From assembly GCF_023634025.1 (NCBI RefSeq), contig NZ_JALJCW010000001.1:1153501-1217500 (forward strand): DNA of 64,000 nucleotides. Reading direction: 5' to 3'. The position numbers were made by a program, and so were the translations under genes. Below the pieces are notes generated by a model that made no database searches, was not told where the DNA came from, and worked only from the letters and a program-made list of their open reading frames with translations. This DNA is from Hanstruepera flava (GTDB lineage: Bacteria; Bacteroidota; Bacteroidia; Flavobacteriales; Flavobacteriaceae). Shown in pieces: positions 22,507 to 25,360 of this stretch; the first letter of the stretch is position 1, and every line of letters begins with the position of its first letter.

Positions 22507-23898
22507 CTATTTAAAACACACTTTTTTGCCTTTAAGTTTGTCGTAAACAGTATTGACGGCTTCCAATAATTGTTTGTCACATGCCGAAGTATCAATATCT
22601 CTATTGTTTGAAAAAGGAATGAGATGAGAATAATCGAAAGACATGCTCATTTCGCTTTCAATGTATTCCATTACCTTTTGAGGTTTATTTAAGTAATCTG
22701 AATATTCAATTAGCAAATAGTTTTCATCTTCAATTTCCAATAAATAATTATAATAATTTAGCCAAATCGCTAACCAATAGTTAAGTGTAGACTTCTCGTA
22801 AGGGAATTCTAAATCCTTATCAGTAAATTTAAACACTTTTTGATTTTTTCCGAATTCATGATGGCCTAACCAATCTAAATAGGTTTGCATAAATTCATCA
22901 TCTGTTTGAAATTCAGAAAACCGTTTATGCTGATTTAACAAAGAATATGCATGTACTTCTGGTTTTCTAAACAGGAAAACTACTTTGAACGATTTATTAA
23001 ATTTACGTAACGATTCATATCTTAAAATAATATTGTTGTTTTTTGACAAATAAGTAGATGTATTGTTTTGCCTTACCAAAGCTTGATATTTCATATAATT
23101 ATCATAAACTTCTTCGGTAATCTCGTGTTTATTTAAGTAGTTTTTGGAAATAAAAGAATCATTTAAAAACACCTTAAAAAAATATTCTTCAAGCGCTTCA
23201 ATTGTATTTAAACCAAACAGCATTTTATCCCCATGTTTTCTCTCTTTCAATTTTGCTTTTTTTGGATTATACATTCTTTTCCAAAGATTAGGGGCTAACA
23301 ATAAAGGCATATTGGAATAATCTAAAGAGCTAAAATTACCAGCTTTAAATAATTGATCGGTTAGGCTAGTGGTTCCTGCCCTAGCAAGGCCAGAAACAAT
23401 TAAAAAAATCTCTTTATCTTCTGAAATCTTTTCTTTTTTAAACTTACTGTCAAATGAAAACAACAACCTCCCAATATTGTAATTATTCAAAATAAGTTTG
23501 TGGAATAAAATTGAAGCTTCAGAATAATCTTCAGAAGGTGTTTTTCTCTTAATTAAAAATGGTATAATGCTCCCTACAGACATGCTTACAAAAAACCAAG
23601 TAGATGAGGTATCTGAACTTTGAAATTCTATATTTTGAAAGCGCAAGTAAATATAAACTGGTAAGCATGTTATAAAAACTATAATAGCCAAAAGGCCAAT
23701 GTTTTTACCCAAAGCCAATAACATATTCTTTAATGCTTCAATAAGGTTTTTTTGCTTAACAAGTTCGTCTTCTTTAGACAAAACCGCATTAGACAGGCTT
23801 AATGTTGCCTCTAATGCTGCAAAAAAATGTTTGCGAAAATAGATTAACAGGCCAATAAATATAAATCCCGAAAGACCTATTAATAAATAATAAACCAT
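22507..23898 (-). CDS. Membrane-anchored PAPS-type sulfotransferase
   Basis: 463-residue protein with two or three N-terminal membrane segments (about 4-21, 66-86 and 101-116) and a cytoplasmic sulfotransferase fold from about 160. The 5'-phosphosulfate loop is IVSGLARAGTTSLT (167-180), and the 3'-phosphate-binding strand/helix is VVFLFRKPEVHAYSLL (Arg311, Ser319). Expected donor is PAPS; the acceptor is unknown, but membrane tethering suggests a lipid-linked glycan or lipid. The ATG shares one base with the stop of a 47-residue membrane protein gene (TAATG), which in turn overlaps an arylsulfotransferase-like gene. No PAPS synthesis genes are in the window. Confidence 0.85.
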   Translation of the reverse strand: MVYYLLIGLSGFIFIGLLIYFRKHFFAALEATLSLSNAVLSKEDELVKQKNLIEALKNMLLALGKNIGLLAIIVFITCLPVYIYLRFQNIEFQSSDTSSTWFFVSMSVGSIIPFLIKRKTPSEDYSEASILFHKLILNNYNIGRLLFSFDSKFKKEKISEDKEIFLIVSGLARAGTTSLTDQLFKAGNFSSLDYSNMPLLLAPNLWKRMYNPKKAKLKERKHGDKMLFGLNTIEALEEYFFKVFLNDSFISKNYLNKHEITEEVYDNYMKYQALVRQNNTSTYLSKNNNIILRYESLRKFNKSFKVVFLFRKPEVHAYSLLNQHKRFSEFQTDDEFMQTYLDWLGHHEFGKNQKVFKFTDKDLEFPYEKSTLNYWLAIWLNYYNYLLEIEDENYLLIEYSDYLNKPQKVMEYIESEMSMSFDYSHLIPFSNNRDIDTSACDKQLLEAVNTVYDKLKGKKVCFK

Positions 23899-24041
23899 TA
23901 CTGTTTTTTGAATAGTTTACGAAAAAAGCGTTTAATAGGAATCCATAAAACCACACCAAAGGCGAAAATAACCAGTAGGGCGATAAATAAAATAATTAGT
24001 AAAGTACCAATACCAATTCCAGGGCCAATGTATAATGTCAT
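23898..24041 (-). CDS. 47-residue single-span membrane protein
   Basis: Very short gene, below usual length cut-offs. It begins MTLYIGPGIGIGTLLIILF, continues as one strongly hydrophobic span to about residue 33, and ends in a positively charged tail (KRFFRKLFKKQ), which predicts the C terminus in the cytoplasm. Evidence that it is real: its ATG overlaps the upstream arylsulfotransferase-like stop by four bases (ATGA), and its TAA shares one base with the downstream sulfotransferase ATG. Both junctions are the coupling arrangements used elsewhere in this window. Function unknown; it may be a small subunit or membrane adaptor for one of the two sulfotransferases. Confidence 0.72.
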   Translation of the reverse strand: MTLYIGPGIGIGTLLIILFIALLVIFAFGVVLWIPIKRFFRKLFKKQ

Positions 24042-25360
24042 AACTTATAATTTAAGGCTTCCAACTCATTATCTAAATAAGTTGTTGTCCAATTAGGTAA
24101 ATAATGATACCCTTCAATATTACTTTCTAGGGTTGTTTTTAAAACCACACCTTTTTCATTCAAAACCCAAAGAATCCCAGATCCTTGCTCTTCAAAAAAC
24201 AAATCGCCATTAGGCAATATACGGTATAGACCTTCGGCATCCGTAAAAATACCATGCTCTTTAAACGGTTCTTCAAAAAGCGGCGTATAGGTATCTTCTT
24301 CAAAGTTATAAATAAGTACATTTGAATGGTTTATTTTTCGGTCAACCGTTTGATTTGTAGGTTTAAATTCTATTTCCTTTTGTATTATTTGAGTTGCTAT
24401 GGTATTATTATTTAAAATTGCTATCGCATTAGACGCTATTATGTCGACATCATGCTGAAATAAGAAAGGGCCTTCAAAAACTTTAATTACTTTGTTTTCT
24501 CCTGGTCGATATTGAATTATTAATGAAGGGCTTCTAAAGCTCAAAAACAAATCACCTTCTTCAAAATATAAAGATGAAAATAATGCAGGTTGTATATCGT
24601 TTAAATGGAAAGGATCATTAGTATAGGGGCTTTTATTGATTAGATATTCTAAATTGTTTTCGCTAAAAATTTCGGTCAGTGATTTATGGTAGAGTGTTTT
24701 ACCGGTTACTGCATCAATTTTAACAATAACATCATCTCTATAGTCCGTTATTATTCCATCTAAAGACACTTTTTTGGGTACTATTTTACCATTATCATGA
24801 TCAACTCCTGGTATCCAAATATTACCTAGCGAGTCGGTATTCATGGCATGATGATAAATAAAATCACTATTAAACCATTTTTCTTTAGATGAAGCATCAA
24901 CCCGAAAAAGCCCGGGTCTTTCGTTACAGGAAACAATTATATCTTTATTGTGCATAAGCATCGCAGGATATAATCTGTCGTTTTCATCAACACTATATCT
25001 GCTAGATAATCTGTCTTCGGGAATTATCCATTCATACTTTATTGTATTATCTTTAAAGTTCTTTAACTGGATTTTATATTCGTTTCCATTTCTAAAAGAA
25101 TACAAACCATATAAATTATAACCCAAATTGTTTATGCCTTCACGATCCTCATCTTTGGTTTTTATATAATAATCTGGAGCATTAACTATATACTCATAGG
25201 TTCTTTTCATATTAGAAATGCCTTCAGAAAACGATCTTATTGGAGTAGTTAATGGTCCCATACTCGTTCCTCCCAATGTTACATTTCTTATTACACCACT
25301 CCAGATCATGAGAAAGAATAAAGCTATTATAAACAATGCTATTTTTCTTATTGTTTTCAT
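24038..25360 (-). CDS. Arylsulfotransferase (ASST)-like beta-propeller protein
   Basis: 440-residue protein with an N-terminal signal anchor (IALFIIALFFLMIWSGV) and a periplasmic propeller of the ASST type (PF05935/PF14269). Family-like active-site blocks appear in order: IYHHAMNTDSLGNIWIPG (His170/171), DPFHLNDIQP (His252), LFLSFRS (Arg276) and LFQHDVDI (His303). PAPS-independent ASSTs transfer sulfate between phenolic sulfates through a sulfohistidine. It is the first gene of a three-gene coupled operon ending in a PAPS-type sulfotransferase, so the pair could act on opposite sides of the membrane; this is inference. An exact TAnnTTTG element lies 35 bases upstream. Confidence 0.8.
   Translation of the reverse strand: MKTIRKIALFIIALFFLMIWSGVIRNVTLGGTSMGPLTTPIRSFSEGISNMKRTYEYIVNAPDYYIKTKDEDREGINNLGYNLYGLYSFRNGNEYKIQLKNFKDNTIKYEWIIPEDRLSSRYSVDENDRLYPAMLMHNKDIIVSCNERPGLFRVDASSKEKWFNSDFIYHHAMNTDSLGNIWIPGVDHDNGKIVPKKVSLDGIITDYRDDVIVKIDAVTGKTLYHKSLTEIFSENNLEYLINKSPYTNDPFHLNDIQPALFSSLYFEEGDLFLSFRSPSLIIQYRPGENKVIKVFEGPFLFQHDVDIIASNAIAILNNNTIATQIIQKEIEFKPTNQTVDRKINHSNVLIYNFEEDTYTPLFEEPFKEHGIFTDAEGLYRILPNGDLFFEEQGSGILWVLNEKGVVLKTTLESNIEGYHYLPNWTTTYLDNELEALNYKL

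Follow-up and report, generated by a model that had tools for sequence, protein, structure and literature searches.

The window analysed here (64,000 nucleotides of the Hanstruepera flava contig NZ_JALJCW010000001.1, positions 1,153,501 to 1,217,500) carries a cassette of three minus-strand open reading frames (ORFs), A, B and C, which run from position 25360 down to 22507 and encode a predicted arylsulfotransferase, a very small membrane protein and a predicted membrane-anchored sulfotransferase of the type that uses 3'-phosphoadenosine-5'-phosphosulfate (PAPS), respectively (Table 1). As a first-pass annotation of this DNA had described, the frames overlap, by 4 bases at the A/B junction (ATGA) and by 1 base at the B/C junction (TAATG). 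A convergent glmS gene lies 8 bases beyond the end of C and a divergent gene for a TonB-dependent receptor flanks the other side (both named by eye). Based on the comparison with other genomes, A, B and C very likely form one shared module, whose job is, almost as surely, sulfation. From its sequence, this module appears to comprise four conserved parts (A, B, C1 and C2), the C of the window being a fusion of a membrane part (C1) and a soluble sulfotransferase part (C2), which several lineages encode as two genes.

Each of the seven flavobacterial cassettes whose C is fused (the window and loci L004-L009) stands between glmS and the TonB receptor gene, and so the cassette has been inherited in place among these bacteria. 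The 1-base B/C overlap is retained in all seven and the 4-base A/B overlap in two, the other five having gaps of 5-11 bases. At L048 the cassette sits at a different site, not between these two genes.

Protein A matches the Pfam family Arylsulfotran_2 (PF14269) with 100.7 bits (cut-off 27), and hydropathy together with the family match places an N-terminal anchor at about residues 6-24, followed by the propeller domain. The site of the E. coli arylsulfate sulfotransferase (ASST) comprises His252, His356, Asn358, Arg374, Thr501 and the sulfo-histidine His436 (PMC13426309, in excerpt); A presents H170/H171, H252, N254, R276, H303 and T373 in the same motif order, the residues being paired by that order, with no structure overlay, and, for the Arg, the QHD motif and the Thr/Ser, additionally by a weak profile alignment to the ASST Cpz4. 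The seven positions (H170, H171, H252, N254, R276, H303 and Thr or Ser at 373) are kept in all 23 cassette-linked A proteins aligned, five of which have Ser at 373. With 13 further copies added, most of them unlinked, the full set of active-site residues, whose absence from the homologues would by the first-pass annotation have counted against a joint function, is found in 34 of 36 copies, and H252, N254 and H303 each in 36 of 36; the two copies that depart from it are a G1120 fragment and, in G206, one member, lacking the Arg, of a tandem pair. This pair lies on a short contig.

Among solved structures, a profile of A finds Cpz4 (9kf4, 9kf6) as the sole ASST, weakly (E ~0.03, with an unrelated Cas2 chain scoring similarly), and a single A sequence finds no match. 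A structure model of A ranks the two Cpz4 entries first and second (E 3.3e-10 and 9.0e-10), with a template modelling (TM) score of about 0.5. Taken together, sequence and model predict that A is an arylsulfotransferase with a beta-propeller fold like that of the solved ASSTs and with the catalytic set present. That A might instead be a non-enzymatic binding or structural propeller, with C doing all the sulfation, we consider very improbable: propellers are often re-used and the conserved Arg is missing from one copy of the G206 pair, but the seven positions are kept in every cassette-linked A across phyla.

The window C scores 24.2 bits against Sulfotransfer_3 (PF13469), slightly below the cut-off of 27, and the four relatives scanned all pass this cut-off (35.3-60.7 bits). 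An R-x-G-T-T loop and an Arg/Ser pair, which we take to be the 5'-phosphosulfate loop and the 3'-phosphate contacts, respectively, are invariant in 10 of 10 C proteins. Solved structures matching the model of C with E up to 0.001 comprise STF1, STF9, CurM and tyrosylprotein sulfotransferases, the model having low confidence in parts of the membrane region, and the R-x-G form of the sulfotransferase motif has been noted before (PMC11625862, in excerpt). On these grounds C is predicted to have a PAPS-sulfotransferase fold and PAPS-binding motifs, and the two enzyme families named by the first-pass annotation are borne out by the Pfam match of A and by the fold, motifs and relatives of C.

By hydropathy, the flavobacterial C proteins have two to three spans within their first 116 residues (the window C has two), and the separately encoded C1 likewise has two to three. 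Of 14 C proteins, 11 have an N-terminal part that matches a profile built from the C1 genes of ten lineages (E 1.8e-18 to 0.017, within this set of 14), the three misses being C2 proteins whose C1 is a separate gene. Among nine loci re-read, C1 is present in eight (L038, itself one of the ten profile sources, L040, L043, L044, L092, L094, L099 and, within the fused C, L093) and was not found in L098. Four C1 proteins scanned match no Pfam family above cut-off.

Protein B is, as the first-pass annotation had it, a tiny single-span membrane protein, with one strong hydrophobic span at residues 14-32. The window B has no Pfam or NCBIfam family close to cut-off, and membership of a known family was rejected for B in general, the models listed (E up to 0.1) matching at most 4 of 20 members for Pfam and at most 2 of 20 for NCBIfam. 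The four residues invariant in the 20 aligned B proteins (Tyr, Gly, Pro, Gly) are also present in four further ones, and the Tyr is preceded by [AVS]-x-A in 16 of 16 leader-bearing B proteins (the starts of three were set by hand), a pattern that we take, by the -3/-1 rule, to be a signal-peptidase-like site. If cleaved there, mature B would expose its Y-x-G-P-G end outside and its basic tail inside.

Searched with A, one genome collection yielded nine relatives, and B and C homologues stand beside A in eight of the nine loci (blastp; all but L011), Pelagibacteraceae and Prochlorococcus included. The conservation outside the strain that the first-pass annotation had suggested checking thus extends to other phyla, the cassette hosts being Bacteroidota, Alphaproteobacteria (including SAR11) and one Prochlorococcus. 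In genome samples, where A was counted as present at E<=1e-20, it occurs in 7 of 395 Bacteroidota (own genome included), in 8 of 289 genomes from the class to which the Pelagibacteraceae genome belongs (that genome included) and in 1 of 292 genomes of the Prochlorococcus phylum; C is present in 3 of 199 genomes sampled from the host family, again with the own genome included. The limit for A misses divergent copies, such as the A beside B in G393 that was seen upon reading the locus. The cassette is rare, though conserved across phyla. A wider cyanobacterial spread was rejected, the starting genome being alone among the 292, as was carriage by phages or viruses: A had no match in phages, and none of 19 pattern matches on viral contigs was confirmed.

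The arrangement of the parts was compared in 31 A-bearing genomes or records, namely the seven flavobacteria with fused C, G104 (L048), G205 (L010), G206 (L011), G207 (L012) and 20 others: eight from the alphaproteobacterial sample (G259, G344, G366, G393, G409, G412, G414, G425), six Bacteroidota (G925, G972, G976, G1102, G1120, G1147) and six plasmids. A, B and C occur together in 25 of the 31, in the order A-B-C in 22, as B-C-A in two (L053, Paracoccus; L054, Tateyamaria) and with A divergent from B-C in one (L010); this linkage, at once conserved and rearranged, supports the joint function that the first-pass annotation had proposed. In G259 it is a second and divergent A copy that belongs to the cassette, and a DUF3137 gene separates this copy from B. 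More scattered sets also exist: in G409 the A copies are spread over three contigs, and B-C1-C2 is on a further one; in G206 a fused C and a weak match to B (E 0.008) stand on a different contig from the tandem A pair; and the SC52 plasmid carries two divergent copies of A besides C1 and C2, and its B lies about 19 kb off, apart from both A and the C arm, near a bifunctional sat/APS kinase (APS, adenosine 5'-phosphosulfate) and a further sulfotransferase. Since B stays beside C1/C2 when A is elsewhere (G409) or last (L053, L054), B seems to be partnered with the C arm.

The mode of discovery matters for these counts. A B query led to the Tateyamaria, SC52, Rhodobacter and Sagittula plasmids and to G393, queries with A and with B to Paracoccus, and a C query to G104, and finds made with B and C favour complete sets; of the 16 genomes found in the samples with the A profile (three of them starting genomes), 12 have the set together. 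It is highly improbable that the genes are neighbours without shared function, held together by chance or hitchhiking. The seven fused-C flavobacterial copies share one site and, alone, could reflect one inherited accident, but the same parts recur in other arrangements in other phyla, and G409 keeps B and C together with A on other contigs; chance adjacency was rejected on account of this conservation in rearranged orders.

Co-occurrence points the same way. Among the 289 genomes, A is found in 8, B (E<=0.001) in 20 and both in 7 (hypergeometric p 2e-8), and among the 395 Bacteroidota A is found in 7, B in 11 and both in 5 (1e-7). A stricter B limit of E<=1.1e-12, picked after viewing the list, gives B in 9 and 5 genomes and both in 7 and 5 (9e-12 and 3e-10). 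These p-values flatter the case and are given little weight, because they ignore kinship and because the B profile was made mostly from B genes beside A, with five taken from the alphaproteobacterial sample and all five strong Bacteroidota genes included. Outside the profile there are four alphaproteobacterial genomes with a strong B (G259, G409, G440 and G393), and three of the four have A. A plasmid search with a single B protein (from L037) is a fairer test of linkage; it gave five records, and A and C are on the same plasmid in 5 of 5. Additionally, pairwise distances correlate across 17 cassettes (with one flavobacterial representative) for A and C (r 0.66), B and C (r 0.70) and A and B (r 0.56), with Mantel p 2e-4 each, a correlation to which the shared ancestry of the hosts could contribute.

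Several cassettes lie among genes for PAPS supply and glycan synthesis. In G104, CysQ, CysC, CysD and CysN (each above its NCBIfam cut-off) directly precede A, and the cassette stands among sugar-nucleotide genes (by eye); in G1147 (L041) an APS kinase gene comes right after C, in what looks by eye like a glycan locus; and the SC52 plasmid has, besides sat/APS kinase, glycosyltransferases and an O-antigen ligase. These three are the loci where PAPS genes and a sulfotransferase occur inside a glycan cluster, an arrangement not seen around the window cassette. The Prochlorococcus cassette is near UDP-glucose dehydrogenase-like and export-like genes (by eye), and the Tateyamaria cassette adjoins GT61 genes. 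APS kinase was found in 18 of 20 cassette genomes searched.

PAPS is cytosolic and A is expected outside, which poses a topological problem for the module. The two-step sulfation of caprazamycin, reportedly the work of Kaysser (2010) and Tang (2013), offers a precedent for the carrier intermediate that the first-pass annotation had imagined. In that pathway Cpz8 sulfates a triketide pyrone, made by a type III polyketide synthase (PKS), with PAPS, and Cpz4 passes the sulfate to an aminoribose (PMC4257720 and PMC6731281, both in excerpt). By analogy with this passage of sulfate through a phenolic intermediate, we read C as the maker of the donor and A as the transferase, in an ordered two-step relay across the inner membrane (C, then A). 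To this reading, in which we infer the relay, its carrier, its acceptor and the membrane sides, we assign a probability of roughly 0.6. C2, held at the inner face by C1, would move the sulfate of PAPS onto a phenolic, membrane-associated carrier; B and C1 may hold this carrier or aid its passage to the outer face; and A, anchored outside, would take the sulfuryl group onto H303, as expected for the ASST family, and hand it on to a hydroxyl group of a glycan or lipid that has been exported.

Since a type III PKS is absent from the genome of the window and was found in 6 of 20 cassette genomes, a pyrone carrier is unlikely here, and the label of a caprazamycin-type system was rejected for want of this enzyme. 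The host phyla have quinones, hence our guess that the carrier is a membrane phenol such as a quinol. The more detailed proposal of a four-part transmembrane relay (A, B, C1 and C2), which would sulfate after export by way of a membrane-bound aryl carrier (a quinol or, more daringly, the tyrosine of B), is put forward tentatively and is open to doubt. If true, it would let bacteria across phyla sulfate glycans or lipids outside, where PAPS is absent, and B and C1 would be new parts that hold or shuttle the sulfated carrier.

A carrier made of protein, with an exposed B tyrosine as the phenol that is loaded by C and unloaded by A, would do without any small molecule. The invariance of Tyr, Gly, Pro and Gly in B, with the Tyr following a putative cleavage site, is consistent with this idea, as is the presence of tyrosylprotein sulfotransferases among the nearest solved relatives of C; ASSTs accept tyrosine peptides (PMC13426309, in excerpt). 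Nevertheless, we find it quite improbable: the B tyrosine is expected outside, away from PAPS, and the Tyr is retained in a sister family (motif A-Y-x-D-P-G) encoded next to methyltransferase and sulfatase-fold genes, an argument weakened by two of the seven loci of that family (L105 and L106), where an APS kinase gene stands no more than about 3 kb away.

The two enzymes could also act in parallel with no relay between them, C on lipid-linked sugars inside before export, which is how sulfated polysaccharide assembly is usually modelled, and A independently outside, with phenolic sulfates supplied by another source or by shifting sulfates from one position to another. PAPS sulfotransferases encoded with glycan genes are the described route (synechan and the Vibrio and Cobetia capsules, as given in excerpts of those papers), and G344 has A without a detected C. 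Against such independence, A is tied to one C family, together with B and C1, and not to sulfotransferases generally; the distances of A and C correlate, though host kinship may explain part of this; and the nearest solved relative of A among the structure matches listed is the relay enzyme Cpz4. We judge parallel sulfation unlikely.

A number of results weigh against the relay across the membrane, or against the module on which it builds. The model of A has moderate confidence (predicted local distance difference test, pLDDT, 74.9) besides its middling TM score to Cpz4, many other propellers come after Cpz4 among its structure matches, and no E. coli ASST entry is among the 50 matches listed. 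Unlinked A copies keep the catalytic residues too, and the residues therefore indicate intact ASSTs and are no evidence for the partnership of A and C. In G925, C1 and C2 are present, B was not detected and another A lies elsewhere; the draft genomes G344 and G1120 (the latter incomplete) have A with neither B nor C detected; and in G440, where B and C2 are present, no A was seen at E<=1e-20 genome-wide or in the 16 kb read. On account of the partial circularity of the co-occurrence count, our confidence in the module, high as it is, was lowered slightly. As to the chemistry, no glycan genes stand beside the window cassette (nor beside the SAR11 ones), and the own genome has CysQ, CysC, CysD and CysN as a group at a distance of about 220 kb from the cassette, or 180 kb from the window end. 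APS kinase had no match in G205 and G412 and a weak one in G414, and is common anyway (6 of 14 controls). No carrier gene was found, type III PKS, the source of the caprazamycin carrier, being absent from the genome of the window and present in 3 of 14 control genomes vs the 6 of 20 with a cassette.

Set beside known systems, the cassette resembles that of caprazamycin in encoding a PAPS-dependent enzyme together with a PAPS-independent ASST and in having Cpz4 as the closest solved structure of A among the matches listed. It differs in that 14 of 20 cassette genomes, like that of the window, have no type III PKS, in its additional membrane parts B and C1, in the membrane anchoring of the sulfotransferase and in its links, in places, to polysaccharide loci. 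With the E. coli CFT073-type ASST and other aryl sulfotransferases (PF05935, PF14269), A shares family, catalytic order and a probable periplasmic site, whereas a probable donor-making partner encoded beside A sets the cassette apart. The synechan xss, Vibrio KMM 8419 and Cobetia KMM 1449 clusters combine PAPS-related and sulfotransferase genes with glycan genes, as is seen for three of the cassettes; the term arylsulfo- is absent from the main texts of the corresponding papers. MBOAT/SGNH transmembrane O-acetylation activates a group inside and attaches it to an exported polysaccharide outside; the proposed relay would be alike in this division, with sulfuryl in place of acetyl and with unrelated proteins.

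The first-pass annotation had held that no described system has this composition. The two-step logic of a PAPS-dependent enzyme and an ASST is already known from caprazamycin, so that this claim holds in part: no description of the cassette, of B or of C1 was found in the open-access literature searched, a result that says little on subscription journals. According to a 2026 review, the role of aryl sulfotransferases in bacteria is poorly understood, the natural donors and acceptors of most are unknown, and Cpz4 is one with a well-established role (PMC13426309, in excerpt). An ASST paired with what appears to be its own PAPS-using partner gives this family a testable role. The cassette suggests how sulfation could proceed beyond the cytoplasm, where PAPS is lacking, adds two membrane families (B and C1) for which no described family was found, and would be of use in predicting the sulfated envelope products of marine bacteria, among them relatives of SAR11.

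Table 1. Coordinates of the cassette and of further features; positions are those of the window unless a locus (L number) is given.
Feature	Coordinates	Strand	Basis or remark
A, predicted arylsulfotransferase (Arylsulfotran_2), 440 residues	24038..25360	-	ORF, Pfam, hydropathy, structure model
A residues 249-255, DPFHLND (H252, N254)	24596..24616	-	Taken as counterpart of E. coli ASST His356/Asn358
A residues 302-304, QHD (H303, predicted sulfo-histidine)	24449..24457	-	Aligned to Cpz4 QHD in profile match
B, single-span protein, 47 residues, YIGPG near start, basic tail	23898..24041	-	ORF, hydropathy
B residues 4-8, YIGPG	24018..24032	-	Y, G, P, G sole invariant residues in 20 aligned B
C, predicted membrane-anchored PAPS-type sulfotransferase, 463 residues, fusion of C1 and C2	22507..23898	-	ORF, profiles, structure model
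C residues 1-120, membrane part related to separate C1 gene	23539..23898	-	C1 profile (window E 0.0019)
C residues 121-463, predicted sulfotransferase domain (C2), G-L-x-R-x-G-T-T (170-177), R311/S319	22510..23538	-	
Sister-family member	L095 5863-6159		
Sister-family member	L101 6996-7202		
Sister-family member	L102 4449-4688		
Sister-family member	L103 7418-7684		
Sister-family member	L104 7470-7697		
Sister-family member	L105 7464-7712		
Sister-family member	L106 7710-7952		
Tandem A copies (G206)	L011 1352-4146		
A start and C1 (G925)	L094 6765-7514		By eye
Polysaccharide-like locus, own genome, outside the window	L111 7461-13416		NCBIfam for Cys genes
Y-I-G-P-G segment with enzyme domain	L100 5755-7902		

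Some further observations were made at the loci read. At L094 the start of A seems, by eye, to continue straight into C1, and B is missing. It looks as though the middle of the cassette had been deleted there; the parts are present in a relative of the same genus (L043). The plasmid pSC52_6 (L058, 60 kb), of which 50 kb were read, carries three annotated sulfotransferase genes and two ASST-like genes and looks like a sulfated-polysaccharide plasmid. In the own genome, the polysaccharide-like locus L111 holds CysQ, CysC, CysD and CysN, a small protein between CysQ and CysC with no NCBIfam family, and dTDP-sugar, MBOAT-like and ordinary sulfotransferase genes (by eye).

The sister family of B consists of small leader-bearing membrane proteins with the motif A-Y-[LIV]-D-P-G, as read at seven loci. 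Their neighbours include methyltransferase-like genes (L101, L103, L105 and L106), sulfatase-fold genes (L095, L101, L105 and, weakly, L103) and a CDP-glycerol transferase-like gene (L104). At L100, a Y-I-G-P-G membrane segment is in-frame with a type I phosphodiesterase / nucleotide pyrophosphatase domain.

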